The notes under the pieces are model-generated. The model had not been told where the DNA came from. It saw only the letters and a list, made by a program, of their open reading frames with translations, and did not search any database. This document shows, piece by piece, positions 43,777 through 59,720 of a DNA stretch of 64,000 nt; positions within the stretch are counted from its first letter, which is position 1; every line of letters starts with the position of its first letter. Source of the stretch: Bacteroidales bacterium. GTDB lineage: Bacteria; Bacteroidota; Bacteroidia; Bacteroidales; F082. The position numbers and the translations under genes are program-made. The DNA lies in the NCBI GenBank assembly GCA_016936355.1, contig JAFGYB010000020.1, positions 1 to 64,000 of the forward strand, written 5' to 3'.

Positions 43777-44964
43777 ATGGAATCATTGTTTCAAAAAATA
43801 ATGGACCTGTCTGAAAAATACAGGGACTACACGGCACAGAACCTTTCGAAGCTGGTACAGATCAAGTCGCTGAGCATGGAGGAAAATGAAGTGCAGCAGG
43901 AACTGAAACGACAGATGTTAGAAGCCGGTTTTGATGAAGTAAATATTGACGGATTGGGCAACGTGATCGGCCGCATCGGGAACGGAAAGAAAGTGCTGGC
44001 CATAGACGGACACATCGACACGGTAGACATTGGAAACATGGAAAACTGGACTTTTGATCCGCTGGGCGGAGAAATTAAAGACGGATACGTTCATGGCCGG
44101 GGCACAGTGGATCAGGAAGGCGGAATCGCCTCTTTTGTAACGGCAGGGAAGATTTTAAAGGAAATGGCCTTCGACCGGGAAATGACAGTTTATTTCGTGG
44201 GCAGTGTTATGGAAGAAGACTGCGACGGGCTTTGCTGGAAATACATTGTAGAAGAAGACAAAATTAAACCTGATTTCGTGATCAGTACGGAACCCACCAA
44301 TCTGAACATTTACCGTGGTCACCGGGGGCGCATGGAAATCCGGGTTTCCTTTAACGGAATTTCCTGCCACGGATCAGCTCCCGAACGGGGCGACAATGCC
44401 ATTTACAAAGCTTCCCGGGCAGCACTGGAAATTGAAAAACTCAACGAACGACTGGCATACGATCCTTTCCTTGGCAAAGGAACTGTGACCATTTCTGAAT
44501 TCAAGTCCGGCAGTCCTTCCCTGTGTGCGGTAGCCGACTATGCCCACCTCCACCTCGACAGAAGGCTCACCTGGGGCGAAACCAAAGAAATCGCCGTAAA
44601 AGAAGTTGAAAATGTAGTAAAAGATATGGGTGGTAAAGTAGAAGTCCTGTATTATGAGGAAACAGCCTACACCGGACTGAGGTACGGCATGGAAAAATAC
44701 TTCCCTACCTGGAAAATTCCGGAAGATCATCCGGCAGTACAAACCGGTATCAGTGCCTATAAGAACCTGTTTGATAAAGATCCGCTGGTAGACAAATGGA
44801 CTTTCTCTACGAATGGGGTCACCATCAACGGAAAATACGGCATCCCTACTATTGGGTTCGGTCCGGGCAACGAAGTAATGGCCCATGCTCCCAATGAAAA
44901 AGTACCGGTGGACGACCTGGTGAAAGCCAGCGCCTTTTACGCCGCTTATGCTTTCCTGATCTGA
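43777..44964 (+). CDS. ygeY: YgeY-type M20 hydrolase of the purine/selenium cluster
   Basis: The 395-residue M20-family amidohydrolase/peptidase has metal-site motifs AIDGHIDTVD (His and Asp), GRGTVDQEGG (bridging Asp), VMEEDCDG (catalytic Glu pair) and STEPTN, plus the dimerisation-domain motif HGSAPERGDNA. These match the YgeY 'selenium metabolism hydrolase' group. In gut bacteria ygeY is part of the gene set needed for anaerobic uric acid breakdown; its exact step is not settled. The longer frame from 43657 is excluded by the promoter at 43726-43733. ygeW follows after 19 bases, so the two form an operon ended by a terminator at 46199. Confidence 0.93.
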   Translation: MESLFQKIMDLSEKYRDYTAQNLSKLVQIKSLSMEENEVQQELKRQMLEAGFDEVNIDGLGNVIGRIGNGKKVLAIDGHIDTVDIGNMENWTFDPLGGEIKDGYVHGRGTVDQEGGIASFVTAGKILKEMAFDREMTVYFVGSVMEEDCDGLCWKYIVEEDKIKPDFVISTEPTNLNIYRGHRGRMEIRVSFNGISCHGSAPERGDNAIYKASRAALEIEKLNERLAYDPFLGKGTVTISEFKSGSPSLCAVADYAHLHLDRRLTWGETKEIAVKEVENVVKDMGGKVEVLYYEETAYTGLRYGMEKYFPTWKIPEDHPAVQTGISAYKNLFDKDPLVDKWTFSTNGVTINGKYGIPTIGFGPGNEVMAHAPNEKVPVDDLVKASAFYAAYAFLI

Positions 44965-44983
44965 TTTATTTAAACAAGACACG

Positions 44984-46171
44984 ATGAATATTCAACAACA
45001 AATAGAAGAATTAAAGACACTGAAGACCGGTTTATACGGACATGATTTCTTATTGACGTGGGAAAAAACCACCGATGAACTGAAAGCTATTCTGGATATT
45101 GCCCAGATACTGAAAGACATGCGCGGCGAGAACATATCTCCCCGTTTGTTTGATTCAGGACTAGCGATTTCTCAGTTCCGGGACAACAGTACCCGCACCC
45201 GTTTTTCCTTTGCTTCGGCAGCCAATCTACTGGGACTGGAAATTCAGGACCTGGACGAGGGGAAATCCCAGATTGCCCACGGAGAAACTGTACGTGAGAC
45301 CGCTAACATGATCTCTTTCCTGGCTGATTTTATCGGAATCCGGGACGATATGTTTCTGGGAGAAGGCAACAAATACATGCGCGAAGTAGGCGAAGCCCTC
45401 GACGATGGTTTTGCTACCGGCGTACTCCCCCACCGTCCCGGGATTATCAACCTGCAATGCGATATTGACCATCCTACTCAATCCATGGCCGATCTGCTGC
45501 ACCTTAAAAACGAATGGGGTGGCCTGGAAAACCTGAAAGGTAAAAAGATGGTGATGAGCTGGGCTTATTCGCCCAGCTACGGCAAACCACTTTCGGTTCC
45601 ACAAGGGATTATTGGACTCATGTCACGCTTCGGAATGGATATCGAACTGGCCTATCCCGAAGGCTACGAACTCATCCCGGAGGTGGTAGAGCTGGCAGGT
45701 AAACAAGCCAAAGCCAGTGGTGGCAGCTTTAAGATTAGTCATTCCATGAAAGAAGCGGTGAAAGGCGCCGACATTGTGTATCCCAAAAGCTGGGCTCCGT
45801 TCCACATTATGCAGCAACGCACCGAACTGCTGAAAGCAAACAACCGGCCCGGACTGGAAGCATTGGAGAAAACATGTCTGGCAGAAAACGCGCGTTTCAA
45901 AGACTGGGAATACAACGAAGACATGATGCGCCGCACCAAAAACGGAGAGGCGCTGTACATGCACTGTCTGCCAGCCGACATTTCAGGCATATCCTGCAAA
46001 GAAGGCGAAGTAGCCGGCGATGTTTTTGAACAGTACCGTATTAAAACTTACCTGGAAGCAGGGTATAAACCATATATCATCGCCGCGATGATGTTGTCGC
46101 AGCGATTTGAAAGCCCAGCACATATTCTGGGAAAGATATTGGAACAGAACCGTAAACGGGTACTGTTCTGA
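44984..46171 (+). CDS. ygeW: YgeW-type knotted carbamoyltransferase
   Basis: The 395-residue enzyme belongs to the aspartate/ornithine carbamoyltransferase superfamily. The carbamoyl-phosphate site DNSTRTRFSFASA, LDEGKSQIAHGETVRET, MVMSWAYSPSYGKPL and HCLPADISG are visible. This pattern, rather than that of ArgF or PyrB, matches YgeW. By family and context it probably works in the phosphorolytic direction, releasing carbamoyl phosphate from a ureido product of purine breakdown for ATP formation; this is inference. It is in an operon with ygeY. Confidence 0.93.
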   Translation: MNIQQQIEELKTLKTGLYGHDFLLTWEKTTDELKAILDIAQILKDMRGENISPRLFDSGLAISQFRDNSTRTRFSFASAANLLGLEIQDLDEGKSQIAHGETVRETANMISFLADFIGIRDDMFLGEGNKYMREVGEALDDGFATGVLPHRPGIINLQCDIDHPTQSMADLLHLKNEWGGLENLKGKKMVMSWAYSPSYGKPLSVPQGIIGLMSRFGMDIELAYPEGYELIPEVVELAGKQAKASGGSFKISHSMKEAVKGADIVYPKSWAPFHIMQQRTELLKANNRPGLEALEKTCLAENARFKDWEYNEDMMRRTKNGEALYMHCLPADISGISCKEGEVAGDVFEQYRIKTYLEAGYKPYIIAAMMLSQRFESPAHILGKILEQNRKRVLF

Positions 46172-46198
46172 TTTGGGATTTGTTTTATTTATTTGTTT

Positions 46199-46241
46199 AA
46201 ACCCGACGTTTTTCTTTGAAAAATGTCGGGTTTGGTTTTTT
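46199..46241 (+). terminator. intrinsic terminator after ygeW
   Basis: AAACCCGAC (46199-46207) pairs with GTCGGGTTT (46225-46233), the inner TTTT/AAAA pairs extend the stem, and a T-tract follows at 46236-46241. It separates the ygeY-ygeW operon from the next gene. Confidence 0.85.
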
Positions 46242-46315
46242 ATGGCATTAGAAACCCAATTTTTCCTTACTTTGTAGGTATAGAAATTTAGTCATCATTC
46301 ACACCGCAAAACAAC

Positions 46316-47320
46316 ATGATCAAATACCTGCTCAACTGGTTTGTGTATGCAGTAAATGGTTTCTGGTTGTTGTTCAGACTGTACGAGCAGAAAAAATTCA
46401 TGAAGAGAATTCTCAATTCTGACCTGGCTCCATTCATTGAACATCACGATGAAAGCCTGGACGAAAGAGATTTTTCTAAAATCAGGAAGTATTACGGACT
46501 GGCTGTACCCGGAGTATTGGGGGAAGCATTTGCACTGTTGCGCGGGAAAAAAATGACTCTCTCCGAACGGAGTGCACTGACTTACCTCGGGGGACTCACC
46601 GGTCTGGCTGACGATTTTTTTGACAAAACCCAGACAAGAGACCAACATATTTTATCCTTAATCAAAGACGAAAAAGATGTTAACATCCGGGGTTCAAATG
46701 AAGAGCTATTCATGACCTTGTACAGGAAAGCCCTTTCCTTTTCAATCCACAGGGAAGAGATTATTACCCGTTGCCTTGAGGTATTTGAAGCACAGATCGA
46801 CAGTAAAAAACAAAGCTCCCCTTCCATTACACAGGATGAGATCAAAAATATAACCTATAGAAAGGGAGGCAGTTCTCTGGTTTTTTACCGGGCTGCCATG
46901 GATCACAGCTTAGATTCTGAAGAAATGAAAATGCTTCACGCTTTAGGTAGTCTGTTCCAACTGGAGAATGATATTTTCGATGTTTACAAGGACCATAAAA
47001 ATAATATACAGACTTTGGTTACTACGGAAACCCGGATGCAGGATCTGCAAAAAAAATATCGGTCACTCATACGCGAATTTATACAAAGTGTTGACCAGCT
47101 AGCTTATTCCTCAAAAAACAAAAAACAGTTTATTCGTCTCATCCTTGTGGTGATCAGTCGGGGTTGTGTGGCCCTTCGTCAGCTAAAGAAAAATCAGAAA
47201 AAGAGTCAACAGGTTTTTGCCATCGACCAGTACGAAAGAAAGGACCTTATCTGCGATATGGAGAAGCTTCCCAATATCTTTCGCACCACCCATTATTTCG
47301 CCAAAGTTAATCCGAGGTGA
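46316..47320 (+). CDS. class I isoprenoid-synthase-fold protein
   Basis: This 334-residue protein is mainly helical with a hydrophobic N-terminus (residues 1-22). A first Asp-rich motif DDFFD lies at 99-103 and a second, NDIFDVYKD, at 218-226, spaced as in trans-prenyl transferases and related terpenoid enzymes. YRKGGSSLVFYRAAMD at 181-196 resembles the K-x-G/A-x-L helix of such enzymes. The first motif would hold magnesium and diphosphate. Substrate unknown; squalene/phytoene-type condensation, prenyl elongation and terpene cyclisation are all possible. It precedes a SAM methyltransferase by 161 bases on the same strand. Assignment rests on motifs read by eye. Confidence 0.6.
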   Translation: MIKYLLNWFVYAVNGFWLLFRLYEQKKFMKRILNSDLAPFIEHHDESLDERDFSKIRKYYGLAVPGVLGEAFALLRGKKMTLSERSALTYLGGLTGLADDFFDKTQTRDQHILSLIKDEKDVNIRGSNEELFMTLYRKALSFSIHREEIITRCLEVFEAQIDSKKQSSPSITQDEIKNITYRKGGSSLVFYRAAMDHSLDSEEMKMLHALGSLFQLENDIFDVYKDHKNNIQTLVTTETRMQDLQKKYRSLIREFIQSVDQLAYSSKNKKQFIRLILVVISRGCVALRQLKKNQKKSQQVFAIDQYERKDLICDMEKLPNIFRTTHYFAKVNPR

Positions 47321-47481
47321 TGCTAAATAAAGTATTCGGTAATTCATTTTCCGGAAAACAAATGATGACTCATTGTGCTTATTTGCCAACGATAAGAACT
47401 ATTTTTTAATCGAAAACACACAAACTTGCCCGGATAAAAAAAGGCTTACAGTTATATATGTTAATGAAGATATCTTAGAAT

Positions 47482-48420
47482 ATGAATGAGAATACTATTG
47501 AAATAAATGACAAAGAACTAAAGAAATATTGTCGTAAAATTTATACGGTCGTTGGGGAAAAATTAATCAAAGAGGAGCAGGTCTCCAGTGAAATAGTCAG
47601 TAACTACTATTCCAAATCAGCTTTTTACTACAAAAAGTTTCATTCGCCGGAGGGAGCCATACATCTCCCCGTTTCATTTTCTGAAAAAGAATCCCATGGC
47701 GAAAAATTGTTATATCAGGCAAAATCCATTGATAAAATCATCAATACCCATAACTATTCCAATATTTTGGAACTGGGATGTGGGATGGGGTTTAATACAA
47801 ACTACCTGGCCAAAAAAAATCCCGGAAAAAAATTTACCGGGGTTGATCTTACAGCGGATAACATCAAACAGGCTAAAAAAAACGCAACAGACTCAGATAA
47901 TAGTATTTTTCTCCAAGGCGATTTTGATGATCCTGAAACAATCCAGGGAAAATACGATTTAATTTTTGCGGTTGAAACGCTTTGTCATTCCAACAACCTT
48001 ATTGAACTTATTTTGAATTATCGCGACAAATTAGCTGATAATGGCAGAATGATAATATTTGATGCCTATGTAAAAAAAGATGCGAAAGTGTTGAAAGGTG
48101 AATTTGAACAAAAAGCTTATCATTTGTTGTTGTGGGGATTTGCGTTGAATCAATTTCAAAAAATGAGCGATATCCTGGATGCAGAAAAGCTAATATCCAT
48201 CGAAAGTATAACTGACTATACCGTAAACGTGGCGCCAAATGCCATTGTATTTCAAAAAGCGGCAATCAAAGTCCTGCGTTTTCATCTATTCCTTAAATTA
48301 CTGCTCAAAACCGGAATCGTATCAATAGCCTTCATAAAGCAACTGAGCGCCGGTTTATTTGGCCCCTATTTTGGTCATACCGGTTACCTGGGATATTATA
48401 AAATAGTGATCACAAAATAA
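47482..48420 (+). CDS. class I SAM-dependent methyltransferase
   Basis: The 312-residue protein has SAM-binding motif I ILELGCGMGFNTNYLAKK near residue 95, an acidic residue after it (FTGVDLTADNI), and motif IV YDLIFAVETLCHS. The segment before the fold, YYSKSAFYYKKFHSPEGAIHLPVSF, is a substrate lid similar to those of small-molecule methyltransferases. The C-terminal 60 residues are hydrophobic and may bind a lipid-like substrate or a membrane. Position after an isoprenoid-synthase-like gene suggests methylation of a terpenoid. Codon use looks more AT-rich than neighbours, a sign of possible transfer. Confidence 0.82.
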   Translation: MNENTIEINDKELKKYCRKIYTVVGEKLIKEEQVSSEIVSNYYSKSAFYYKKFHSPEGAIHLPVSFSEKESHGEKLLYQAKSIDKIINTHNYSNILELGCGMGFNTNYLAKKNPGKKFTGVDLTADNIKQAKKNATDSDNSIFLQGDFDDPETIQGKYDLIFAVETLCHSNNLIELILNYRDKLADNGRMIIFDAYVKKDAKVLKGEFEQKAYHLLLWGFALNQFQKMSDILDAEKLISIESITDYTVNVAPNAIVFQKAAIKVLRFHLFLKLLLKTGIVSIAFIKQLSAGLFGPYFGHTGYLGYYKIVITK

Positions 48421-48515
48421 ACTGCCCTGAGCATAGATCTAACGCAAGTAAATACTGGCACGAATGAATGAGTCACTCATTACCGGATGAAAATACTGAC
48501 GGATCACATCATCCA

Positions 48516-48767
48516 TCACTTATAAATAATCTTGTAACCCATGATAATCACTGCAAAACAGAGTGTCACCGCATTGGCGACAAGTATAGGAATATCATCC
48601 GTGACAATACCATAAATAAACCATAACAATACTCCTGTTGAAAACATGAGGTACATAACAAGAGATATTCCTTGTGTATTTCGGGTTCGGATTGTTTTTA
48701 TTGCCTGTGGGACAAATGATGCGGTGGTTAAAATTGCGGCCACGTATCCAATGAATTGTTCGATCAT
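48516..48767 (-). CDS. SemiSWEET sugar transporter
   Basis: SemiSWEETs are three-helix proteins that dimerise to make a sugar uniporter. The 83-residue protein has the family's PQ-loop motif SFVPQAIKTIRTRNTQGIS in helix 1 and WFIYG in helix 2. The long reading frame from 48887 adds 40 residues without resemblance to the family; ATG 48767 (MIEQFIGYVA) gives the normal length. It is unrelated in function to the genes on both sides. Confidence 0.9.
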   Translation of the reverse strand: MIEQFIGYVAAILTTASFVPQAIKTIRTRNTQGISLVMYLMFSTGVLLWFIYGIVTDDIPILVANAVTLCFAVIIMGYKIIYK

Positions 48768-49150
48768 CTTCCATGAATCATTTTGTTCCGGCAAAAATAG
48801 TTTTAATCCGTTAACACATCCAACAGGTACCTTTACAGCGGGAAATAACGCACTGATTGTTGAATTTGCTGCCCGAAATAATGCCACAGTATATCTGAAA
48901 AGCGTTTTTAATTCTGTAACCGGGTAGATGCAGACCTATTAAAGCTGAGAGAATAGCAAAAGAATATACGATGTTGACTTTCAAAGCCAATTTCAAAGGT
49001 GAATGCTTAGGATACAAAAGTGCAGGAAAGTCTACCGTCTGGGAACAAGAACGACGAAATTATCATGTTACAGGGAGCAGACGAAGAAGGCTTCATTTTT
49101 TTGATACAGAGACCAAAGAAATCCTAACCACAGTAAATAAGGAATAGTTT
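48768..49150. other. gene-poor stretch with one short open frame
   Basis: This 383-base gap between the SemiSWEET and ssnA genes holds no recognised gene. One plus-strand frame, 48971-49147, stays open for 58 codons, starts MLTFKANFKGECLGYKS and ends in TVNKE. It is rich in Lys and Arg and matches nothing I know; it may be a gene remnant or chance. A further plus-strand frame running to 48927 overlaps the SemiSWEET gene and is probably a shadow. I see no hairpin terminator or clear promoter for ssnA here. Confidence 0.35.
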
Positions 49151-50422
49151 TCAGCCTTTCATCCGGCTCCACAACCGCTGTGCCTGTTCCTGTGCAAAAG
49201 TCATCACTTCGGCTTCATCCACAGTTTGCATTATACTATCTTTCAGAATGAGTCTCCCATCGGAAATAACATGCTGTACTCTTGAAGCATCCCATCCGAA
49301 AATAAAATGTCCAAGAATGTTATCTTCGGTTACCGGTGTCCTTCCCCGATAGTCCAGTACTACCAGGTTGTTTTCTCCATCGCCTTCAAAACGATTCTCC
49401 TTCAGATACCGATGTACATTTCTAAATCGGTGATATGTTTCTTCAAAGCCAATGGTTTCAAAGCTCTGACCGGCAAAATAGGCCTGTTGGGCACTGCGGA
49501 TCATGTCGCTGTGCATGCCATCGGTTCCCAGCATAATCCGTGATCCCAGCCCATTTCCATTGAACACCCCCACTCCATTGTTCAGATTGCTCTCCATATT
49601 TTCCGCCATAAAAGCTTTGGATTCACGGAACAGCTTTCTTTCGTGATTGGAAAGATGCAGACCATGCACCAAGAGGGTCTTGCTCTGATCCAACATACCA
49701 TAATCATTGAGTCGTTCCAGAACCCGCCTACCATATTGTACCAGAGCCTGATCCTGATCGTAGCGATCTTCAGCTACATGTATATGCAGGCCGGATCTGA
49801 ATTTCTCCACGAGGTCAACTGCTTTTTTCATAGTCTCATCGCCCACAGTAAAAGAAGCATGCAAGCCCACAAGTCCCTGATGTTTCTTTAGATAATGCTC
49901 GGTTTCGTGCAATCCCTGTTCAGCTTTTTCCCTACCGTCACGGTCGGTCACTTCATAGCAAAGCAAATGCCCCACGCCTACCTTCTCAAAAGCATTGGCA
50001 ATAGTTTCCAGTGAACCGTCAATGGCGTTAGGCGAAGCATGGTGGTCGATCACGAATGTGGAGCCGGCTTTAGCACAGGCTACGGCGGTCGCCAAAGCAC
50101 TGGCTTCTATCATTTCCTTATCCAGTGCCTTGTCCAGTGTCCACCAGATGTATTTCAGGATCTCATAAAAGTTCTCAGGATTTTTCGCCGGTGCGGGCAT
50201 CCCCGTCGCCAAAGCGGAATAAATGTGATGATGCCCCACAGCGAAAGATTTGGTAACAATCTTTCCTTGACAATCCAGCACTTCACTCACCTCAATATCC
50301 GGAACCGATTTAGGTGTAAAAAATAACTTACCGTTCACTCCTTCTTCCACCAGAATATGAGTGTCTGTGAAACTTAGTTTTTCCCAGTCCAGGAATCGGG
50401 CATTTTTTAATAAGAGTGTCAT
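49151..50422 (-). CDS. ssnA: SsnA-type aminohydrolase of the purine/selenium cluster
   Basis: The 423-residue protein belongs to the amidohydrolase superfamily, the same group as guanine and cytosine deaminases. Metal motif AVGHHHIYSALATGMP (HxH), VGLHASFTVG (metal His), HIHVAEDRYDQDQ and LGTDGMHSDM (catalytic Asp) are all seen. It matches SsnA. By context it hydrolyses a C-N bond of a purine-derived intermediate. Its ATG follows the xdh stop by three bases, so it is the last gene of the 54192-49151 operon. Confidence 0.92.
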   Translation of the reverse strand: MTLLLKNARFLDWEKLSFTDTHILVEEGVNGKLFFTPKSVPDIEVSEVLDCQGKIVTKSFAVGHHHIYSALATGMPAPAKNPENFYEILKYIWWTLDKALDKEMIEASALATAVACAKAGSTFVIDHHASPNAIDGSLETIANAFEKVGVGHLLCYEVTDRDGREKAEQGLHETEHYLKKHQGLVGLHASFTVGDETMKKAVDLVEKFRSGLHIHVAEDRYDQDQALVQYGRRVLERLNDYGMLDQSKTLLVHGLHLSNHERKLFRESKAFMAENMESNLNNGVGVFNGNGLGSRIMLGTDGMHSDMIRSAQQAYFAGQSFETIGFEETYHRFRNVHRYLKENRFEGDGENNLVVLDYRGRTPVTEDNILGHFIFGWDASRVQHVISDGRLILKDSIMQTVDEAEVMTFAQEQAQRLWSRMKG

Positions 50423-50425
50423 AGC

Positions 50426-52978
50426 TTACGATTTTCGTTTCATAGGTAGTTTGGTGCGCCGGATGCCGTCAAACTGATACAGGGCATTGGCCACCGCAGC
50501 TGCAGTGGGCACCAGTCCGATCTCTCCAACTCCTTTGGCACCGTATGGTCCCACCGGATCTTTTACCTCCACGCCTTTCACCACAATTTCCGGAGTTTCA
50601 TGCGCCCTCAGAATACCCAGTTTCCTATATCTGTCAGAAACCAGATACCCGTCTTTCATGGGCAGGTCTTCCGTCAGTGCATAACCCAGGCCCATGTGTA
50701 CAGCACCTTCAATCTGCCCTTCAAAGAGCATGGGATTCATAATCTTACCCGCATCATGGGCAGCAACTATTTTGCTTACCTCTCCGTTTTCATCCAATAC
50801 ACACACCTGAGCTGCATATCCGTAGGAATAGTGAATCTTCGGGTCTTCCACCTCATCTCCCGGTTTGGAGGTCCAGTCACAAATATATTGCCCAGAATAG
50901 GTTTTTCCGATCAGTTCTTTGACAGTATTCGAATGTAAGTCTTCTTTCAATTGATGGGCGGCATTGATCACTGCCAGTCCCAGCAAGGCCGTTGCCCGTG
51001 AGGATGTGGTCATTCCCGTTTTGATCTGTGCATCGGTATCCACGACTACTTCCATGATGTCAGGACGTAAACCTGTTTCTTCACACAAGGTCTGCAGAGC
51101 CATGTTGTGAACCCCCTGCCCCATCTCTGTCCAACCGTGACTAATCTGAATTTTGTCTTCCGAAAGAATTTCTATTTTCACTTTGGATTCATCCACCATG
51201 CCGTTGCCCACTCCTGAGTTTTTAATGGCCGTGGACAGGCCTGCAAAAGAAGCATTTGTAAAATCATCTTTCACCGCTTCGAGGCAAGCCCTGATGCCTA
51301 CACCAAAAACTTTCTGTCCTGTAGCCGTTTTCAATCCGTCGGTTAAAGCGTTGTCCCAGCGGAACTGCCAGCGGTCGAAACCACCCTGTTCACAAAGATC
51401 GTCGATGCACTGCTCCAACGCAAATACCACCTGATTCACACCAAAGCCACGCATCGCACCACAGGGAATATTATTGGTATAAACTGTTTTAGCCGTCATG
51501 TTTACATTGGGAATATAATAACCTCCGGCAGCATGTCCGGCCACCCGTTCCATCACCTTCATACCCACCGAAGCATAAGCTCCTGTATCGCCCACTGCCA
51601 TGAGCGACAAAGCCACCAACTTACCGTTTTCATCTGCACCGAGCTTCATATCCATAAACACCGGATGACGTTTGGGATGCAAACGAATAGATTCTTCACG
51701 GGTCAATGTAAGCTTCACGGGTTGCTGCATCAGCCAGGCAAAAAGAGCCGTTTGCCCCTGGATACTCAAATCTTCCTTTCCTCCAAAACCACCACCATTG
51801 GGAACCAGTTCCACATGAACTTTTTCCTCGGGCAAACCCAAAAGCATCGCTACCTGGCGCCGGTCCTCGTATACGCCCTGACTCTGACTGTATAATTTCA
51901 ACTCTCCAATTCCGTAAGGCAGAGCCAGTGCGGCTTCTTTTTCCATGAACCCATGTTCGATACGCTGGGTTTGATAGTTGCCTTCCGAAACGTATTGGGC
52001 TTGTTTAAAAGCCTGCTCCGCATCACCGATGGTATAATGTACTGTTTCGAAATTATTGGGTCGTTCCTTGTGTACCTGAGGTCCCTTGAGGGCTTCAAAT
52101 ACATCCGTGACCGGTTCCAGCACTTCGTATTCTACCCGAATCATCTCTGCTGCTGCCCGGGCCTGTTCTTCCGTATCTGCTAATACTCCTGCCAGTACAT
52201 CCCCAATGTAATGCGTGGTTTCTCCTTCACCAATCATCACTGGCCAGTCCTGCAGTATTAACCCAACCTTATGTTCTCCGGGGATGTCGTTTGCCGTTAC
52301 AACCCGTTTCACACCAGGCATAACTATAGCTTCTGACAAATCAATCTTCAACACTTTAGCTTTGGGATAATCGCTGAATTTCAAGGCAGCAAACAACATC
52401 CCATCCACAAACAAATCATCCACAAAATTGCGTTGCCCCAATGCCGTTTCATAAGCTTGGTATTTGGGTTGTGAGACCCCCACTTTTCCTGAAGTTTTAC
52501 GGACTTCCAGCGTCTTATTTTCCCGCAAAGCCTCGGCTGCAGTCAGGACTCCCTTTTCAATTTTCTTGTATCCGGTACAACGGCAAATGTGTGGTTTAAA
52601 AGCCAAACGAATGTCTGATAAATCAGGTCGCAGATTTTTCTGCAACAGTACTTTTGAGCGCGTAATAAACCCGGGAGTACAAAAACCGCACTGAACCGCT
52701 CCTTCGTTGACCATGGCTTTGGCCAAAGTGTCTTTTATATTTTCCTGAAAGCCTTCAATGGTGAAAACCTGAGCCTGATCCAGCGTTTTCATTTTAGTAA
52801 CACACGAAAGTTTGGCTTCCCCGTTGATCTCCACCGTACAGGAACCACAGGCCGCCTGTCCGGAACAACCGTCTTTCACGGAAGTGATCCCCAGTTCATT
52901 CCGTAAGTATTTCAACAACATCCGATTGGGATCACCGTCGTATTCGTATTTTTTTCCGTTGACAAAAAAAGTAATCAT
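50426..52978 (-). CDS. xdhD: selenium-dependent-type xanthine dehydrogenase, Mo/Fe-S subunit (XdhD-like)
   Basis: The protein of about 850 residues fuses two ferredoxin-like [2Fe-2S] domains (CSGQAACGSC, then CGFCTPG and CRCTGY) to the molybdopterin domain. Mo-site sequences GGGFGGKED, GAMRGFGVNQ, TEMGQGVHN and KGVGEIGL (with the catalytic Glu) are present. No FAD domain is present and no FAD subunit is in the window, so electrons must pass to a separate protein; YgfK is the candidate. The first cysteine motif has five residues between the first two cysteines, where canonical enzymes have four. Start ATG 52978 overlaps the stop of the PLP gene as ATGA, so the 47-residue longer N-terminus is not used. 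It hydroxylates a purine, probably. Confidence 0.93.
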   Translation of the reverse strand: MITFFVNGKKYEYDGDPNRMLLKYLRNELGITSVKDGCSGQAACGSCTVEINGEAKLSCVTKMKTLDQAQVFTIEGFQENIKDTLAKAMVNEGAVQCGFCTPGFITRSKVLLQKNLRPDLSDIRLAFKPHICRCTGYKKIEKGVLTAAEALRENKTLEVRKTSGKVGVSQPKYQAYETALGQRNFVDDLFVDGMLFAALKFSDYPKAKVLKIDLSEAIVMPGVKRVVTANDIPGEHKVGLILQDWPVMIGEGETTHYIGDVLAGVLADTEEQARAAAEMIRVEYEVLEPVTDVFEALKGPQVHKERPNNFETVHYTIGDAEQAFKQAQYVSEGNYQTQRIEHGFMEKEAALALPYGIGELKLYSQSQGVYEDRRQVAMLLGLPEEKVHVELVPNGGGFGGKEDLSIQGQTALFAWLMQQPVKLTLTREESIRLHPKRHPVFMDMKLGADENGKLVALSLMAVGDTGAYASVGMKVMERVAGHAAGGYYIPNVNMTAKTVYTNNIPCGAMRGFGVNQVVFALEQCIDDLCEQGGFDRWQFRWDNALTDGLKTATGQKVFGVGIRACLEAVKDDFTNASFAGLSTAIKNSGVGNGMVDESKVKIEILSEDKIQISHGWTEMGQGVHNMALQTLCEETGLRPDIMEVVVDTDAQIKTGMTTSSRATALLGLAVINAAHQLKEDLHSNTVKELIGKTYSGQYICDWTSKPGDEVEDPKIHYSYGYAAQVCVLDENGEVSKIVAAHDAGKIMNPMLFEGQIEGAVHMGLGYALTEDLPMKDGYLVSDRYRKLGILRAHETPEIVVKGVEVKDPVGPYGAKGVGEIGLVPTAAAVANALYQFDGIRRTKLPMKRKS

Positions 52979-54192
52979 AACATTCTTGATTTTAACGATT
53001 CCAGGTCGGGGATGATGGCTTCCGGCATGGAAATCACTTTTTGAACCGCTTGCAGGTCTTTCAGTCCACTTCCTGTGGAAAGAATTACACTGGATCCGAC
53101 ACCACCGGATTTCAACCATCCCGCGAAGGCGGTGGCTGCTGCCGGTTCTGCAAACAAACCAGTATTTCGGGATAAAACAGCAGATGCCGACAAAATCTCA
53201 TCATCAGAAACGGTCAGTACCTCACCGTTGTACTTATTCAGAAACTGTTTCGCCATGTAGAAATTCCGGGGTATGTCCACCGAAATGGAATCAGCTACGG
53301 TACGGCTGGGCACAAAAGAAAATTCATCCTTATCCACATTATTAACCAGATTGGCACTGCCTTCTGATTGCACTGCCACGATTATCGGTATACGGTCGAT
53401 CATATCCAATTTCAGGAGATCTTCGAACCCTTTGTACACACCTGAAATAATAACCCCATCTCCCACAGGAACAAAAATCTTATCCGGAAGCTGTCCGTTC
53501 AACTGATCAAACAATTCAAATGAAACGGTTTTCTTTCCTTCAATAGTCAGCGGATTATAAGCTGTATTCCGATTGTACCATCCCAGATTATCGGTTGCTG
53601 CCACACTCAGATCGAAGGCATCGTCGTAGGTTCCTTTCACAGGAATCAATGTAGCTCCGTACATCAAAATCTGAGTCAGTTTGGCTAAGGGGGCTTTTTC
53701 AGGAACCAGGATCAATGCTTTCTGGTGTTGTGCGGCACAGATTCCTGCCAGCGAAGAACCTGCATTTCCTGTTGACGCTGTAATAATCGTATCGATTCCC
53801 TGTTCTTTGGCAAAAGCTGAAACCAGGGCTGAAGCCCTGTCTTTAAAGGAATACGTGGCATTCAGCGAATCATCTTTAATAAAAACAGGGGCCTTGATAC
53901 TCTTCCCTTCTATGGATCTTAAGGTAATCAATGGTGTGCTTCCGATACGCAATTGAGGCAGGCTGCTTACCTCATTAATAGGCATTAGATCGAGAAACCC
54001 TGTGGATTTTAACTGTGAAAACGTAATCTTTTGTTGTTTCAGACCGTCATAATCGTACAGTACTTTCAACACGCCCCTCGGTGGTTTATCTTTCTGATTA
54101 GCGGCACTGCATTCCGGACACAGATAGCGTACTTCACTGGAATCATAGGTTTTGCCACAGTCTACACACTGATATTGGAATTTCTGTTCCAT
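52975..54192 (-). CDS. threonine-synthase-like PLP enzyme with N-terminal zinc ribbon
   Basis: This 405-residue fold-type II PLP enzyme has a four-cysteine knuckle at its start (YQCVDCGKTY, YLCPECSA), the PLP-lysine motif ATYSFKDRAS near residue 118, ASTGNAGSSLAG and the phosphate-binding LSTGSGLKD at the C-terminus. It resembles threonine synthases but also diaminopropionate ammonia-lyase-type enzymes. Translational coupling to the xdh gene, the first step of purine breakdown, argues against housekeeping threonine synthesis. It may replace the missing YgeX, which makes pyruvate and ammonia from 2,3-diaminopropionate. That role is inference. Confidence 0.82.
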   Translation of the reverse strand: MEQKFQYQCVDCGKTYDSSEVRYLCPECSAANQKDKPPRGVLKVLYDYDGLKQQKITFSQLKSTGFLDLMPINEVSSLPQLRIGSTPLITLRSIEGKSIKAPVFIKDDSLNATYSFKDRASALVSAFAKEQGIDTIITASTGNAGSSLAGICAAQHQKALILVPEKAPLAKLTQILMYGATLIPVKGTYDDAFDLSVAATDNLGWYNRNTAYNPLTIEGKKTVSFELFDQLNGQLPDKIFVPVGDGVIISGVYKGFEDLLKLDMIDRIPIIVAVQSEGSANLVNNVDKDEFSFVPSRTVADSISVDIPRNFYMAKQFLNKYNGEVLTVSDDEILSASAVLSRNTGLFAEPAAATAFAGWLKSGGVGSSVILSTGSGLKDLQAVQKVISMPEAIIPDLESLKSRML

Positions 54193-54214
54193 TTCCCCGT
54201 TTTTAGACAGACAT

Positions 54215-54222: not shown

Positions 54223-54261
54223 AGGAATTCTTACTGCGTTTTGGTAAAAATTTCGTTTCAT

Positions 54262-54298
54262 AAAAAAAACTTCCGGCAACGCTGGCTACCGGAAGTTT
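54262..54298 (-). terminator. intrinsic terminator of the 495-residue PLP gene
   Basis: A 10-bp perfect stem, AAACTTCCGG and CCGGAAGTTT (54267-54276 and 54289-54298), is followed on the minus strand by a run of Ts. It ends the gene at 54307 and isolates the next operon. Confidence 0.88.
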
Positions 54299-54306
54299 AA
54301 AGCATG

Positions 54307-55794
54307 TTAACCTTCGTACATTTTTAACAAACCCGTCCGGTCGTTAAACTCCCGGATAAGTTCGTCCCAGCGATCAACCTGGTTGAATAATTGACCCCAT
54401 AAATTGCGGTCGTACCACAGAGCATTCAGATCCTGCACATCTTTTGCCTGCTGTTCCACCCAGGTAAAGTATTTCAGGTTGTGTACTGCTTTTTGGTCCT
54501 GATAATTCAGTTCTCGCATATGGTCGGTTTTCTGTCCCAGCATACAACTTTCGTAATCACGGGCAGCCTGCAATTCACTGTAGGCTCCTCTTTCTTCATT
54601 CAGTTCAGCCAAACGAGAACGATACATATCCACCGAATCGGTGGCAATGGTCATGATGACATCATCGGCTGTGTATTCAAAATAACGGGCTGTTTTTATA
54701 GCCGAAAGTAAGTTGGCGATACTGGAAATTCCAAGCAAGGGAAGCTGCGCAATCAGTTCATCGCTGCAACCGACTGATTTCAGGAATTGCTGTCCTTCCT
54801 TTTCGTTAAACAGACGGAGCAAACGCATGGGGTCCTCATCGTCGATGGCAGTCACCACATTGGTATTTTTCACATTATGGATCCACGGTATATGCTTGTC
54901 ACCAATTCCTTCAATTCGATGTGCACCAAACCCATTTCTTAAAATTGTCGGGCATTGTTGTGCTTCCGAAGCCACTACTTTCAGGTGTGGATACTTTGTC
55001 CGAAGATAATCACCGGCTGCAATGGTACCGGCCGAGCCGGTAGCCGAAACATAAGCCGCCAGCTGGGATTTTTCGGTTTTTACCAACTGAAAGACTTCCT
55101 CAATAGCGCTTCCGGTTATATTGTAATGCCATGCCGCATTGCCAAATTCATCAAACTGATTGAAAATAACCACGTCTTCACGGGTATTTCTCAATTCCCA
55201 GCACTTGTCGTAAATTTCCTTCACATTGGATTCACTTCCAGGAGTGGCAATCACGGTTGATCCCACTTCGTTACGCAACCAGTCAAAACGTTCCTGACTC
55301 ATTTCTTCCGGCAAGATGGCAATGGGTTCGGTGGACATCAAACGGCTGTCAAAGGCTCCACCACGGCAATAATTACCTGTGGAGGGCCAAACCGCTTTGT
55401 GATAAGTAGGATCGAATTCCCCGGTGATAATTCGGGGTGCCAGACAGCCATAGGCTGCTCCCACCTTGTGTGCTCCTGTGGGAAAGTATTTACCGATCAT
55501 CAGCACAATGCGGGCATCCACCCCTGTCAACGCTTTTGGTAACTCAATGAAATTGGGATTTCCAAATAATCCCCCTTTTTCTTTGGGTTCGTTTTTCCAG
55601 GTAATACGAAACAAATTCAACGGATTAATGTCCCACAACCCCACCTTTGTAAGGGCTTGTTTGATTTTATCGGGAATTAATTCGGGGTGTTTTTGTTGCT
55701 CAAAAGTAGGCAAAATAATTTGCTGTTCTTTAAATCTTGCGACAGCGTGGGCCAACGCCTCTTCGTTAACCACTTTATCCGAAAAGTGTATCAT
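54307..55794 (-). CDS. fold-type II PLP-dependent lyase of unknown substrate
   Basis: The 495-residue enzyme belongs to the cysteine-synthase/tryptophan-synthase-beta fold. The PLP lysine is in PTGAHKVGAAYG (about residue 112), followed by WPSTGNYCRGGAFDSR (phosphate/substrate loop), ILPEEMSQERFDWL and SATGSAGTIAAGDYL. It is about 100 residues longer than YgeX and does not have its N-terminal sequence, so it is a different family within the fold, seen in many anaerobes without an assigned role. A lyase acting on a diamino or sulfur amino acid is likely. Own promoter and terminator; divergent from an Lrp-type regulator, its probable controller. Confidence 0.82.
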   Translation of the reverse strand: MIHFSDKVVNEEALAHAVARFKEQQIILPTFEQQKHPELIPDKIKQALTKVGLWDINPLNLFRITWKNEPKEKGGLFGNPNFIELPKALTGVDARIVLMIGKYFPTGAHKVGAAYGCLAPRIITGEFDPTYHKAVWPSTGNYCRGGAFDSRLMSTEPIAILPEEMSQERFDWLRNEVGSTVIATPGSESNVKEIYDKCWELRNTREDVVIFNQFDEFGNAAWHYNITGSAIEEVFQLVKTEKSQLAAYVSATGSAGTIAAGDYLRTKYPHLKVVASEAQQCPTILRNGFGAHRIEGIGDKHIPWIHNVKNTNVVTAIDDEDPMRLLRLFNEKEGQQFLKSVGCSDELIAQLPLLGISSIANLLSAIKTARYFEYTADDVIMTIATDSVDMYRSRLAELNEERGAYSELQAARDYESCMLGQKTDHMRELNYQDQKAVHNLKYFTWVEQQAKDVQDLNALWYDRNLWGQLFNQVDRWDELIREFNDRTGLLKMYEG

Positions 55795-55824
55795 TTTTTA
55801 AAATCTTTAGCTTAATTTCATAAG

Positions 55825-55832
55825 CAAAATTA
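55825..55832 (-). promoter_or_regulatory. -7 element TAATTTTG of the PLP gene
   Basis: Consensus TAnnTTTG on the minus strand, 30 bases before the ATG at 55794, inside the divergent control region. Confidence 0.6.
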
Positions 55833-55869
55833 AATATATATACACTTATCCTTACAACACAACTTTTTT

Positions 55870-55940
55870 AAGTAAATACATCTATTATTTGAAGTTTGAC
55901 AGGAAATTAATTACATTTGTCAGCAAATCAATATTTACTT
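55870..55940. repeat. 9-bp inverted repeat bracketing the lrp promoter
   Basis: AAGTAAATA (55870-55878) and its exact reverse complement TATTTACTT (55932-55940) are 53 bases apart, one upstream and one downstream of the -33/-7 elements of the regulator gene. Lrp/AsnC proteins form octamers that often wrap DNA between distant sites; these arms are candidate operators for autoregulation. Confidence 0.5.
55889..55919 (+). promoter_or_regulatory. lrp-type regulator promoter, -33 TTG and -7 TACATTTG
   Basis: TTG (55889-55891) and TACATTTG (55912-55919) are 20 bases apart. The element lies inside the longer reading frame and places the true start at ATG 55955. Confidence 0.65.
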
Positions 55941-55954
55941 TAGAAAAAACAGCC

Positions 55955-56416
55955 ATGAAGCCATTAGACGATACAGATTACAAAATATTAAACCTGCTTC
56001 AACTCAACAGCCGGATTACCATACGTGAATTATCAGAAAAGCTTTTCCTGTCTACTACGCCCATTCACGAGCGAATCAAAAAACTGGAAAAGAGCGGATA
56101 CATTCAGAAATACGTCACCCTTATCGACCCGAAAAAGATCGGTCAGAAACTGATTGTATATATCTCGGTAATCCTGAACGACCACACCAAATCTTCGGTG
56201 GAAAAATTTGAAGCCGAAGTAAACGGACTGGATGAAGTGATGGAATCGTATTATGTTTCAGGAAATTCTGACTTTCTGTTGAAGGTGTACTGCAAAGATA
56301 TGGATGACTATCACCAGTTTGTGGTGGAAAAATTTTCTGTCATTCAGAATATTGCCCGGTTTTACAGTTCGTTTGTGCTGACCGAATCAAAGGTGGATCA
56401 CCACTTTAAACTATAG
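55955..56416 (+). CDS. Lrp/AsnC-family transcriptional regulator
   Basis: The 153-residue regulator starts MKPLDDTDYKILNLLQLNSR, the typical AsnC-type helix-turn-helix opening, with FLSTTPIHERIKKLEKSGYI as recognition region. The C-terminal RAM domain follows (IVYISVILNDHTKSSVEKFE, YVSGNSDFLLKVYCKDMDDY), which binds amino acids and forms octamers. It is transcribed away from the 495-residue PLP gene and probably senses an amino acid substrate or product of that enzyme. It ends one base before the ygfK stop on the other strand. Confidence 0.95.
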   Translation: MKPLDDTDYKILNLLQLNSRITIRELSEKLFLSTTPIHERIKKLEKSGYIQKYVTLIDPKKIGQKLIVYISVILNDHTKSSVEKFEAEVNGLDEVMESYYVSGNSDFLLKVYCKDMDDYHQFVVEKFSVIQNIARFYSSFVLTESKVDHHFKL

Positions 56417-56417
56417 A

Positions 56418-59400
56418 TCAACTGTATTCCAACAGGGATGCCCCCTGCAGAATCACCGTCATTTCAGCAGCCTTTTGCAGACTGAAGGCCTCTTTTCTTT
56501 CAGGATTAATCTTTTTGAAATCCTGAACAGAAAAATCAGTTTTATCGAAAACCACTTCAAAGTCATCTTCTTTGTAAATGAAGTTTTCCAGTGACTCCGT
56601 TAAAGAAAATGCTCGTCCGGATGCTTTGCCTTTCAGGATTTTTTGATCGTCGAGCTTTTGCAGGTAAAAGCCTTTTTCTGCATCATCAAAATCCTTACGG
56701 GTCAGATAAATCTTGGGTTTCTCCAAATAAGGTGCACTTTGAGTCGGACAGAACGTAGCACAATTACCGCATTCATTGCAGAAATTGGCGATGTTCAGGA
56801 TTTGAATTTCCTGTTTGATTTCAAAAAGCCCATCCGGTTCCCAGCGGAGATTTCCATTCTCAAGAATCCCTTTCTGCAAAGGAATCGGGGTCTTTTTAAC
56901 CGGATAAGAAAAATTAGCCAGATTCGGACAAACGGTGGTACATATATTACATACTTCATCGCAAAGCAAACAACGGGAGGCTTCTTTTTGGGCTTGCTCT
57001 TCCGTGAACGTACCGGTAATTAATTGAAAGCTCTTCGGATCATTTAAACTGGATTTCTCAGGATGCTCGCCCGGAACCCGTTCCGACTTTTTAGCCATCA
57101 AATCCTTCACCAAAGCCGGCTTTCTTGAAATCTCTTCCGGTTTGAAATTCCGGGTATCAAAATCAATTTCGTACTTATCAATGAGTTCCTGGGCTATTTT
57201 TCGTCCGTCCCCCACCCCTTTGATCAGTGAGGCTGCACCCAGGCGGGCATCACCACCAATGTAGACGCCCGGTAACTGCGTTTCAAAACTGTCTTCTTTG
57301 GTTTCGAGCAGGTTTACATCGGTAAAATCAACCGTTATTTTTTGTCCAACTGCCGGGATCAGCGTATCCACTTCCATTTCAAACTCAGAATCCTCGATAG
57401 GAACCGGGCGCACCCTTCCGCTTTCGTCCGGTTCACCAGGTTTCATCCGGATGCATTGCACTCCGGCAATTTTCCCGTTTTCGGTCATTATTTTCACCGG
57501 ATTCACCCATTCCATGAATTCCACCCCTTCTTCCATCGTTTCAACAATTTCATGATACACCGCCGGCATTTCATTCACAGAACGACGATACATCAGCGTG
57601 ACTTTACCGCTCGCTCCTGTCATGCGGTTCGCTGTCCGTGCTATATCCATGGCCGTATTGCCACCACCGATCACAGCTACCTTATTTCCGACGGTAAAAT
57701 CTTTCCCTTTCCTTGATGCTTCCAGAAACTCCAGCGATTCATAAACGCCTTGTGCTTCCATCCCATCCAGCTTCAACAACGGCACATCCTGTGCCCCGAT
57801 CGCCACAATCACCGCATCATTGTCTTTTCGTAACTGATTAAATTCTTTCTTTCCAATTTTTTGATTATAATAAACGGCAACTCCCAGGTCGGTAATATGT
57901 TTCACATCCAGCTCCACGGTTTCATCCGAAATACGGAACCGCGGAATAGCACCTGATACCATGCCCCCCGCCTTACTTTTAGCTTCATACACCGCAACCT
58001 CAAATCCTGCTTTGCGCAGAAAATAGGCACTGGATAATCCGGTGGGCCCAGCCCCGATAATGGCCACTTTTTTCTGAATATCAGACAACACCTCTTTTTC
58101 CGAACCCTTATATTGGTTATGCCAGTCCACCACAAAATGCTTAATCTCGCGAATAGCCAAAGGCTCGTCATAGTTCATACGAGTACACTGAGTCTGACAT
58201 ACATGATCACACACGATGCTTGTTGAATTCGGAAAAGCGTTTGTCTTGGTAATTACCCGATAAGCTTGTTCAAACTCCCCTCTAGCCGTATGGTACATAT
58301 AGGATGGGATATCCTGATGGGTCGGACAGGCATTCAAACAGGGGGCTGCTATACAATCGAAATATGATAGCGGTTTGTTGTTTTTTATACTTGGCGTACG
58401 AAGATAGGTTCGCTTGTATTCTCTGGCTTGCAAAATCTGTTTTGCGTACCGTTCAATATTAGCAAGTCTTGCCGCAACAGGCTCCCCTGTCCCTGCTTTT
58501 GCCGAAATAAAATCCTCAATAGTTTCAACCCTTTCAGCTACAAAAGCCTCGTTCAGTTTTTGGAAATACTGATGAAGGCGGGTGTACCCACCGGGTTTCA
58601 GTAAATCGGTACACACGGTAATGGTTTCAAATCCACAGGTAAGAACATCGGCAACATTCAATGCGTTAATTCCTCCCGAAAAGGAAAGACTCAGTTCACC
58701 GTTAAAATCTTTCTGTAGTTTTTGAGTCAACGCAATGGAAATAGGATGCAGTGCCCTGCCGCTCATATACATCATCGAAACATCCTCACCAAACACCGGT
58801 TTATTGTTTACCGATTCCAGGGTATTGGTCAGCTTCAGGCCAAATTGCAGGTTTTCCTTTTCAGCCGTTTGCTGCAACGCCCTGATCATCTTCAAGGCTT
58901 CAGGATATTTCAGGTCGTGTTCAAACGCTGCATCGGGAACCTGTGTTTTAAACTGAAGTGTTTCATTCAGTATTCCTCTCAACAAATCGGACCCAAGCAA
59001 AGTGGGATTGAGTTTTACAAACGTATGAAGTTTCTTTTCCGTGATCAGATACCGGGCAATATCTTCGATTTCATTGGCCGGACATCCATGCATGGTGGAA
59101 AGTGTAATATTATCGGAAATTCGATATGGAATTTCTATTTCCTGAATTTCAGGATAGACCGAGCTGATTTCCCCAACTTTTTGAGCAATTCCCTCCGGAC
59201 AACGCTGCATTTTATCAAGAAACCATTGCACATTTTCTTTCATGATTCCCTCCAGATTGTAGCCCACACTCATATTAAAGATGGTATTCACCGGAGTCTT
59301 TCTCCCGAGTTTATGGTGCAATACATGGATCAATACCCAGGCTTTCAGATATTCGTCAAAACTCTCTTTGATTTTCAGTTCCTGCGACCATTCGCAGTTG

Positions 59401-59720
59401 TAGCCTTCGTCCTGCATGTCAATACACGGTCTGGGAATCTCCAATTCATCCAGCGTTTGAACCGTTTTCAGTTCGATATACCGGGCACCCGTCAGCCAGG
59501 CAGCAACAATATTCTGTGCCATTTGCGAATGCGGACCGGCCGCCACCCCCAGAGGGGTTGCCAGTTTCTGATCAAAAAGTTCAGTGGTAAACCGGTTTTC
59601 ACTATCCGGATTGAAAAACAAGTGCTCGTCGATACCCAAAATGGAATGATTGCGGTCGTATTCCGACAGCATCATCTGTATCAGTTGTTTTAAAGGAATG
59701 GGATGAAATTGATCTGACAT
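56418..59720 (-). CDS. ygfK: YgfK-type flavin/iron-sulfur oxidoreductase
   Basis: This 1100-residue multidomain protein matches YgfK (putative selenate reductase subunit; E. coli protein about 1030 residues). In order: a dihydroorotate-dehydrogenase-like TIM barrel (LGVAAGPHSQMAQN, STMHGCPANEIE, SFSGGINALNVADVL); a GltD-type 4Fe-4S cluster domain (CLNACPTHQDIPSYM, CDHVCQTQC); FAD and NAD(P) sites (IIGAGPTGLSSAYFL, VIGGGNTAMDIART); and two C-terminal cluster motifs (CDEVCNICTTVCPN, CNECGNCATFCP). It likely moves electrons between NAD(P)H and a purine-derived substrate or the xdh protein. Own promoter. In gut anaerobes it is required for uric acid breakdown. Confidence 0.93.
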   Translation of the reverse strand: MSDQFHPIPLKQLIQMMLSEYDRNHSILGIDEHLFFNPDSENRFTTELFDQKLATPLGVAAGPHSQMAQNIVAAWLTGARYIELKTVQTLDELEIPRPCIDMQDEGYNCEWSQELKIKESFDEYLKAWVLIHVLHHKLGRKTPVNTIFNMSVGYNLEGIMKENVQWFLDKMQRCPEGIAQKVGEISSVYPEIQEIEIPYRISDNITLSTMHGCPANEIEDIARYLITEKKLHTFVKLNPTLLGSDLLRGILNETLQFKTQVPDAAFEHDLKYPEALKMIRALQQTAEKENLQFGLKLTNTLESVNNKPVFGEDVSMMYMSGRALHPISIALTQKLQKDFNGELSLSFSGGINALNVADVLTCGFETITVCTDLLKPGGYTRLHQYFQKLNEAFVAERVETIEDFISAKAGTGEPVAARLANIERYAKQILQAREYKRTYLRTPSIKNNKPLSYFDCIAAPCLNACPTHQDIPSYMYHTARGEFEQAYRVITKTNAFPNSTSIVCDHVCQTQCTRMNYDEPLAIREIKHFVVDWHNQYKGSEKEVLSDIQKKVAIIGAGPTGLSSAYFLRKAGFEVAVYEAKSKAGGMVSGAIPRFRISDETVELDVKHITDLGVAVYYNQKIGKKEFNQLRKDNDAVIVAIGAQDVPLLKLDGMEAQGVYESLEFLEASRKGKDFTVGNKVAVIGGGNTAMDIARTANRMTGASGKVTLMYRRSVNEMPAVYHEIVETMEEGVEFMEWVNPVKIMTENGKIAGVQCIRMKPGEPDESGRVRPVPIEDSEFEMEVDTLIPAVGQKITVDFTDVNLLETKEDSFETQLPGVYIGGDARLGAASLIKGVGDGRKIAQELIDKYEIDFDTRNFKPEEISRKPALVKDLMAKKSERVPGEHPEKSSLNDPKSFQLITGTFTEEQAQKEASRCLLCDEVCNICTTVCPNLANFSYPVKKTPIPLQKGILENGNLRWEPDGLFEIKQEIQILNIANFCNECGNCATFCPTQSAPYLEKPKIYLTRKDFDDAEKGFYLQKLDDQKILKGKASGRAFSLTESLENFIYKEDDFEVVFDKTDFSVQDFKKINPERKEAFSLQKAAEMTVILQGASLLEYS

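Follow-up and report, generated by a model that had tools for sequence, protein, structure and literature searches.

A gene cluster of a Bacteroidales bacterium points to a variant ending of the reductive urate pathway, with two PLP enzymes and no recognisable YgeX

How does the anaerobic degradation of urate end in a genome in which the enzyme of the last step is not recognised? The question is raised by a window of 64,000 nucleotides from a Bacteroidales bacterium (G000:C50:1-64000; the genome of 3.10 Mb, in 74 contigs, is 94% complete), in which genes for YgeY, YgeW, SsnA, a molybdenum (Mo) hydroxylase referred to here as Xdh850, and YgfK lie close to genes for two fold-type-II pyridoxal phosphate (PLP) enzymes, PLP1 and PLP2. 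Work on E. coli and Clostridia established the reductive urate pathway in 2025 (Li 2025, PMC12507026; Percudani 2025, PMC12990295), and in the pathway as published YgeX breaks 2,3-diaminopropionate down to pyruvate and ammonia (PMC12507026). We consider it likely that the locus encodes a variant of this reductive urate (yanthine) pathway, probably one of the Bacteroidota, where PLP1 stands in for YgeX and PLP2 contributes an additional step. The kind of pathway is already known; it is the ending that is the variant.

PLP2 and YgfK occur together across the phylum. In a sample of 395 genomes of this phylum, with PLP2 accepted up to an E-value of 1e-60, we find YgfK in 20 genomes, in 19 of them over the family cut-off and in one (G082) with the gene split over two contigs. 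PLP2 is found in 35 genomes, comprising all 20 that have YgfK and 15 of the other 375 (Fisher test, p 1.5e-24, among genomes that are related), and PLP1 is present in 34 of these 35, the exception being G156; in G031, G116 and G148 PLP1 is recognised by its score pattern only. PLP2 is linked to pathway genes in 16 of the 17 YgfK genomes examined (G047, G310 and G385 were left out); the contig of G031 stops 137 bases past PLP2. It also stands alongside YgeY, YgeW/OTC, SsnA or Xdh genes in all 14 genomes inspected among the 15 extra ones (G326 was left out), and in several of these the place of YgfK is taken by a short YgfK-like protein, or by two proteins, one PreA-like and one GltD-like, that recall UacX. 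The original prediction, made from the letters of the window, had spoken of added PLP enzymes. Both are present, and the wording understated them, as they are the most unusual part of the locus and accompany the pathway across the phylum, where YgeX is for the most part lacking.

YgeX was not found in this 94%-complete genome, whose sole match to the YgeX model TIGR03528 is PLP1, at 32.4 bits against a cut-off of 532.25. That YgeX is hidden elsewhere was considered and rejected within the limits of the assembly on searches with TIGR03528 and PF00291; the six PF00291 matches are two proteins that resemble TrpB by eye, one closest to BhcB, one like CysK or CysM, and PLP1 and PLP2 themselves. A YgeX-like match of more than 300 bits occurs in seven of the 35 PLP2 genomes, none of them above the TIGR03528 cut-off, and the other 28 all score 55 bits or less. 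As a control for this model, one of 14 control genomes scores over the cut-off, and E. coli is among those matched.

Gene order around PLP2 was compared in loci from a scan of contigs, using the best 80 of 553 confirmed PLP2 relatives, and the proportions given describe these closest relatives only; many of the contigs are short. Genes were named with a simple open reading frame caller and BLAST or profile hidden Markov models made from sequences of this analysis, at thresholds of our own choosing, and PLP2 itself was missed by the caller in six of the 80 loci (L125, L130, L135, L141, L145 and L154). The closest titled relatives in this set are metagenome-assembled Bacteroidetes or Bacteroidales, with PLP2 proteins at most 81% identical. 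The plus-strand order YgfK-PLP2-PLP1-Xdh850-SsnA is present in 19 of the 80 loci and is the order on the minus strand of the window; YgfK-PLP2-PLP1-Xdh850 is present in 28, PLP2-PLP1-Xdh850 in 33, and PLP1 follows PLP2 in 39, with many loci ending too early to show the remaining genes. YgeY or YgeW lies on the opposite strand in eight. The cluster had been described as rearranged; the comparison gives a recurring order instead of an individual rearrangement. In other families of the phylum there is a second layout, in which YgfK is placed opposite YgeY, a carbamoyltransferase of about 336 residues that misses the YgeW cut-off (186.9 of 500 in L055) and PLP1, together with a three-subunit Xdh, SsnA and PLP2. 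In L109, L111, L121, L126 and L129, five loci whose titles name other phyla, HyuA comes after PLP2.

Two of the 80 loci contain a true YgeX adjoining PLP2, with scores on NF006058 of 425.4 (L113) and 422.4 (L128) over a cut-off of 276. In L113, titled Bacteroidetes, the order is YgfK, PLP2, YgeX, and YgeX occupies the position that is normally PLP1's; in L128, titled SAR324, the order is carbamate kinase, YgeW, YgeY, YgeX, PLP2. The presence of YgeX in the usual place of PLP1 suggests that these two serve the same function and that PLP2 has a further one.

PLP1 is a threonine-synthase-like protein with N-terminal pairs of cysteines, in which Lys117 is invariant in 31 sequences. Its structural model has a predicted local distance difference test (pLDDT) score of 93.8, the closest solved fold is ThrC 2zsj (32% identity), and the match with E. 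coli YgeX, at 27% identity, covers 127 residues only. PLP1 scores 172 bits on the threonine synthase model TIGR00260, over a cut-off of 167.1, and 205.5 under 303 on NF006050, its best-scoring NCBIfam equivalog. It could be, then, that PLP1 is the cell's threonine synthase and merely sits in the operon, the last step falling to PLP2 alone or to an enzyme not seen here: the two other TIGR00260 matches of the genome are far lower (54 and 37.8), and PLP2 is slightly more universal than PLP1, G156 having PLP2 and no PLP1 match. We regard this as unlikely, since 13 of the 20 YgfK genomes carry a presumed canonical ThrC besides PLP1 (14 of the 20 have such a ThrC, presumed from a length of 434-445 residues and a score of 234-322 bits), and since PLP1 of this genome falls, with support of 100/99, in a clade of 16 that are all cluster-type PLP1 of relatives. 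This clade stands apart from nine other ThrC-like proteins, of which just the L170 protein, on a very long branch, is taken as canonical ThrC. The recurrent succession of PLP2 and PLP1, and of PLP2 and true YgeX in L113, argues in the same direction. PLP1 most likely takes over the role of YgeX.

PLP2 has a CysK-like core and fits no specific curated family, only the broad PALP; its seven NCBIfam matches, of which the best reaches 98.6 against a cut-off of 350.95, include no YgeX model. Lys110, within a PTGAHKVG motif, is invariant in 53 sequences. In the structural model (pLDDT 92.5) the core is nearest to beta-cyanoalanine synthase 3vc3 (24% identity; TM-score 0.85 by target length and 0.56 by query length), and beyond the core there are, by estimate, about 50 extra residues at the N-terminus and about 90 at the C-terminus. 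A search of PDB sequences gives a best match of just 82 bits, and identity to E. coli YgeX is 30%, over 47 residues only. PLP2 as a direct replacement of YgeX was considered as well, and this candidate is weakened by the true YgeX that adjoins PLP2 in L113 and L128. PLP2 is probably an additional enzyme of the same pathway that acts on 2,3-diaminopropionate or on the ureido compound preceding it; it might be a racemase, for example, or serve one enantiomer only. The role on an enantiomer is a guess from fold and context, which we make because HyuA is described as D-stereospecific and E. coli YgeX as equally active on both isomers (PMC12507026), and because the stereochemistry of the ureido intermediates is named as an open question (PMC12990295). 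The pair of PLP enzymes bears on that question and makes it testable.

The coordinates of the cluster and the scores of its genes are given in Table 1. Profile search recovers all five families named in the original prediction, at the place where it had put them, and the genes lie on both strands, as it had described; two PLP enzymes and an Lrp/AsnC regulator are also present. The best E-values of the five families range from 1.5e-110 (SsnA) to 6.1e-274 (YgfK), far from chance. SsnA, Xdh850, PLP1 and PLP2 form one run on the minus strand, where YgfK also lies; YgeY, YgeW and the regulator are on the plus strand.

Table 1. Genes of the cluster, with positions in the window and profile scores in bits
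Feature	Position	Strand	Model, score and cut-off
YgeY	43777-44964	+	NF009555 552.5, cut-off 321
YgeW	44984-46171	+	TIGR03316 648.7, cut-off 500
SsnA	49151-50422	-	NF005540 369.9 (<444), TIGR03314 339.3 (<455.5)
Mo hydroxylase Xdh850	50426-52969	-	TIGR03311 862.9, cut-off 830.45
PLP1, fold-type-II PLP enzyme	52975-54192	-	PALP 219.8
PLP2, fold-type-II PLP enzyme, 495 residues	54307-55794	-	PALP 45, cut-off 35
Lrp/AsnC-type regulator	55949-56416	+	AsnC_trans_reg and HTH_AsnC-type
YgfK, 1100 residues	56418-59720	-	TIGR03315 911.2, cut-off 835.3

YgeY, an M20 hydrolase, is 53% identical to E. coli YgeY and has 20 Asp/Glu/His columns in common with it in at least 97% of 49 aligned sequences; it is expected to remove a ureido group to give 2,3-diaminopropionate. 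YgeW, a knotted carbamoyltransferase 68% identical to its E. coli counterpart, is a candidate for the enzyme that releases the other ureido group by phosphorolysis, as carbamoyl phosphate. YgfK is an iron-sulphur flavoenzyme and a candidate yanthine reductase, with 36% identity to E. coli YgfK and 17 cysteines common to both in at least 97% of 50 aligned sequences. SsnA is divergent and misses both curated cut-offs, yet these are by far its best family, the next being NF004701 at 100.7. It is 34% identical to E. coli SsnA over 404 aligned residues, 16 His/Asp/Glu columns match in at least 97% of 58 aligned sequences, and the catalytic residues are kept; it is a candidate for the amidohydrolase that opens the pyrimidine ring of dihydro-yanthine. 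The subfamilies assigned in the original prediction hold in part: YgfK passes its cut-off; SsnA has its own family as the closest one and yet remains under the cut-offs; and the hydroxylase lies outside the XdhD-like model.

Xdh850 is a single-chain [2Fe-2S]/Mo hydroxylase with the domains Fer2, Fer2_2, Ald_Xan_dh_C and MoCoBD_1/2. It had been called XdhD-type; its score on the XdhD-like model TIGR03313 is 213.5 against a cut-off of 1101.9, and it passes TIGR03311 instead. Among the neighbours scanned beside Xdh850 there is no protein binding flavin adenine dinucleotide (FAD), such as YgfM, the rest of the genome not having been searched for YgfM. This absence of an adjoining FAD subunit would make an electron donor other than reduced nicotinamide adenine dinucleotide (NADH) possible. 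Xdh850 is a candidate urate dehydroxylase that would give yanthine. A different assignment is that Xdh850 hydroxylates xanthine or hypoxanthine, and that the cluster serves another step of purine metabolism or another nitrogen heterocycle, the downstream enzymes acting on a related ring. TIGR03311 is named selenium-dependent xanthine dehydrogenase, Xdh850 is just 25% identical to E. coli XdhD, and Glu606 of XdhD, proposed by Li 2025 to orient urate, could be paired with no position of Xdh850 in the alignment. Even so, we think this assignment rather improbable: a second enzyme for the xanthine step would seem redundant because contig C26 has separate xanthine-dehydrogenase-like genes (see below), XdhAC of C. 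sporogenes is reported to make yanthine from urate (Percudani 2025, PMC12990295), and YgfK, YgeW and YgeY pass the urate-set models, to which SsnA also comes closest. Glu606 was tried as a marker of urate specificity and dropped, as it falls in an insertion in the alignment. Dependence on selenium cannot be read from the name of TIGR03311 by itself; the markers proposed for a selenium-dependent Mo hydroxylase are selD and accessory genes, YqeB among them (PMC2276186).

Further genes of the pathway lie elsewhere in the genome. A HyuA-type dihydropyrimidinase (G000:C26:16515-17888; TIGR02033 539.9 over 393.25) is 40% identical to E. coli HyuA and adjoins a protein of 209 residues, which has 64-66% identical counterparts between SsnA and HyuA in L083, L086 and L120. 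The same contig carries xanthine-dehydrogenase-like subunits and an XdhC-type factor, all under cut-offs (TIGR02965 793.7 of 849.5; TIGR02963 315.7 of 467, in a gene cut by the stretch examined; NF045664 224.0 of 350). A carbamate kinase is found at G000:C48:210774-211670 (TIGR00746 374.9 over 358.25), and the search for a urate transporter (UacT) gave one PF00860 permease, at G000:C1:12555-13706, for which no NCBIfam match was seen at 1e-30. With the families of the cluster, HyuA, the xanthine-dehydrogenase-like subunits and carbamate kinase bear out the original prediction that the gene set is one for anaerobic, reductive urate degradation. The genes of the pathway appear scattered over several sites of the genome, which offers a putative candidate for each step except a recognisable YgeX.

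Such dispersal might mean that the pathway is decaying here, HyuA having left the cluster, YgeX having been lost and unrelated genes having entered between YgeW and SsnA. HyuA and its 209-residue neighbour are indeed on another contig, and the genes at 46316-48887 have no relative at 1e-8 in the 80 loci. Decay is nevertheless highly improbable, as the reading frames are open, SsnA and YgeY retain their catalytic residues and YgfK its cysteines, HyuA still has its 209-residue partner where it now lies, and the lack of a YgeX match above 300 bits is common to 28 of the 35 PLP2 genomes.

In the variant that we favour, with chemistry taken from PMC12507026, xanthine would be converted to urate by the XdhAB-type enzyme of C26, and urate would be dehydroxylated by Xdh850 to 2,8-dioxopurine, which YgfK would reduce. 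SsnA and the HyuA of C26 would open both rings to give 2,3-diureidopropionate, from which YgeW and YgeY would strip both ureido groups; one of these would leave as carbamoyl phosphate, from which carbamate kinase (C48) could form adenosine triphosphate. The resulting 2,3-diaminopropionate would be broken down to pyruvate and ammonia with PLP1 in the place of YgeX and PLP2 providing an extra step. Growth of the organism on purines, as the original prediction held, would presumably go with this.

Several observations weigh against this proposal. We infer every reaction in this organism, as well as the substrates of PLP1 and PLP2, from gene families and their context. SsnA and the xanthine dehydrogenase subunits of C26 fall short of their family cut-offs, and Xdh850 misfits the XdhD-like model and passes one named for xanthine dehydrogenase; its urate specificity is putative. 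PLP1 is the sole candidate above the TIGR00260 threonine synthase cut-off in a 94%-complete genome. The annotated E. coli cluster (K-12 region) has no PLP2-like gene, and the joint presence of PLP2 and true YgeX in L128 and L113 means that loss of YgeX does not account for PLP2. The counts do not represent independent events either, since a single family (f18) supplies 16 of the 20 YgfK genomes. Finally, 26 of the 80 PLP2 loci, several of them from Elusimicrobia, have no pathway genes nearby that are recognised at the thresholds used; four of these (L111, L124, L129 and L134) have more than 9 kb on both sides of PLP2, and 12 have more than 9 kb on one side.

The E. coli uricolytic cluster of the K-12 region reads ygeW-ygeX-ygeY-hyuA-yqeA ... 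ygfK-ssnA-ygfM-xdhD (Li 2025, PMC12507026). As in E. coli, YgeW, YgeY, YgfK and SsnA are present here, with HyuA and carbamate kinase elsewhere in this genome, and the Mo hydroxylase adjoins SsnA. Unlike E. coli, no YgeX is found and PLP1 and PLP2 are present, the hydroxylase is of the TIGR03311 type with no YgfM beside it, HyuA is on another contig, an Lrp-type regulator is found where E. coli has YgeV, and SsnA is divergent and under the family cut-offs. A Mo enzyme with no adjoining FAD subunit is a feature shared with the clostridial variants, namely XdhAC of C. sporogenes (PMC12990295) and the system of C. difficile with UacX and UacY (PMC12507026), although YgfK and YgeW are kept here in contrast to C. 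difficile, which has UacX and UacY, and YgeX is not found here. The diaminopropionate ammonia-lyase YgeX (TIGR03528 / NF006058) is itself a fold-type-II PLP enzyme, like PLP1 and PLP2. PLP2 differs from the ThrC / CysK family in its N- and C-terminal extras and in the lysine motif, and PLP1 and PLP2 both differ in being found in purine-type clusters.

In the literature searched we found no description of this ending of the pathway; work by Liu and by Kasahara, outside that search, may mention Bacteroidota. For its survey, PMC12507026 relies on the SsnA family IPR017700; the groups that it names are Bacillota, Pseudomonadota, Chloroflexota, Actinomycetota, Spirochaetota and Elusimicrobiota, and the stem 'Bacteroid' is absent from its main text. 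YgeX is represented there by PF00291, which as a label would take in PLP1 and PLP2 as well. The present clusters suggest that the pathway is also present in this phylum, with YgfK in 20 of the 395 sampled genomes, and mostly with a different ending. We put forward, tentatively, that PLP2 founds a new family of enzymes of reductive urate degradation. It would supply one more PLP-dependent reaction, such as racemisation or the enantiomer-specific breakdown of 2,3-diaminopropionate or albizziin, in a broad range of bacteria that are known chiefly from metagenomes and many of which would have PLP1 in the place of YgeX. If this is true, the spread of anaerobic urate degradation is misjudged by surveys that rely on YgeX or on the cut-off of the SsnA family.

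The Lrp/AsnC gene runs divergently from PLP2, and proteins 56-72% identical to its product are encoded in 13 of the 80 loci; by position only, it is a candidate local regulator of the cluster. The genes at 46316-48887, between YgeW and SsnA, encode a protein with a weak polyprenyl synthase match, a methyltransferase and a SemiSWEET. The polyprenyl synthase match, in a protein of 334 residues beside the methyltransferase (46316-48420 region), is sub-threshold (18.6 of 27). Directly upstream of ygfK, at 59876-61519, there is a PF07969 amidohydrolase (294.2 bits) with a signal-like N-terminus, which shares its broad Pfam family with UacY of C. difficile. Its identification as UacY was rejected, as its eight NCBIfam matches are all at or below 39.3 bits and no specific model fits. 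Two further contigs of the genome, L053 (G000:C54) and L054 (G000:C57), carry near-duplicate genes that by eye resemble a tryptophan operon and may reflect a strain mixture or an assembly artefact.

Other surroundings of PLP2 were also seen. In L138, L140 and L144, titled Elusimicrobium or Elusimicrobia, no purine genes are recognised near PLP2, which is followed by a zinc-ribbon-like protein and, by eye, an apparent tRNA nucleotidyltransferase. A PreA-like protein stands in place of YgfK near PLP2 in L204:10524-13036, L205, L209 and L212 (in L204 with NF006183 at 427.9 over 335, in the others by eye), accompanied in three of the four by a GltD-like protein, and is a possible counterpart of UacX. 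PLP2 is adjoined by an RnfC/PrdC-like protein and a PduT-like microcompartment shell protein in L209:11092-13367, where profiles were run (TIGR01945 241.2 under 245.95; TIGR02526 132.8 under 250.3), and, by eye, in L213:7527-9561.

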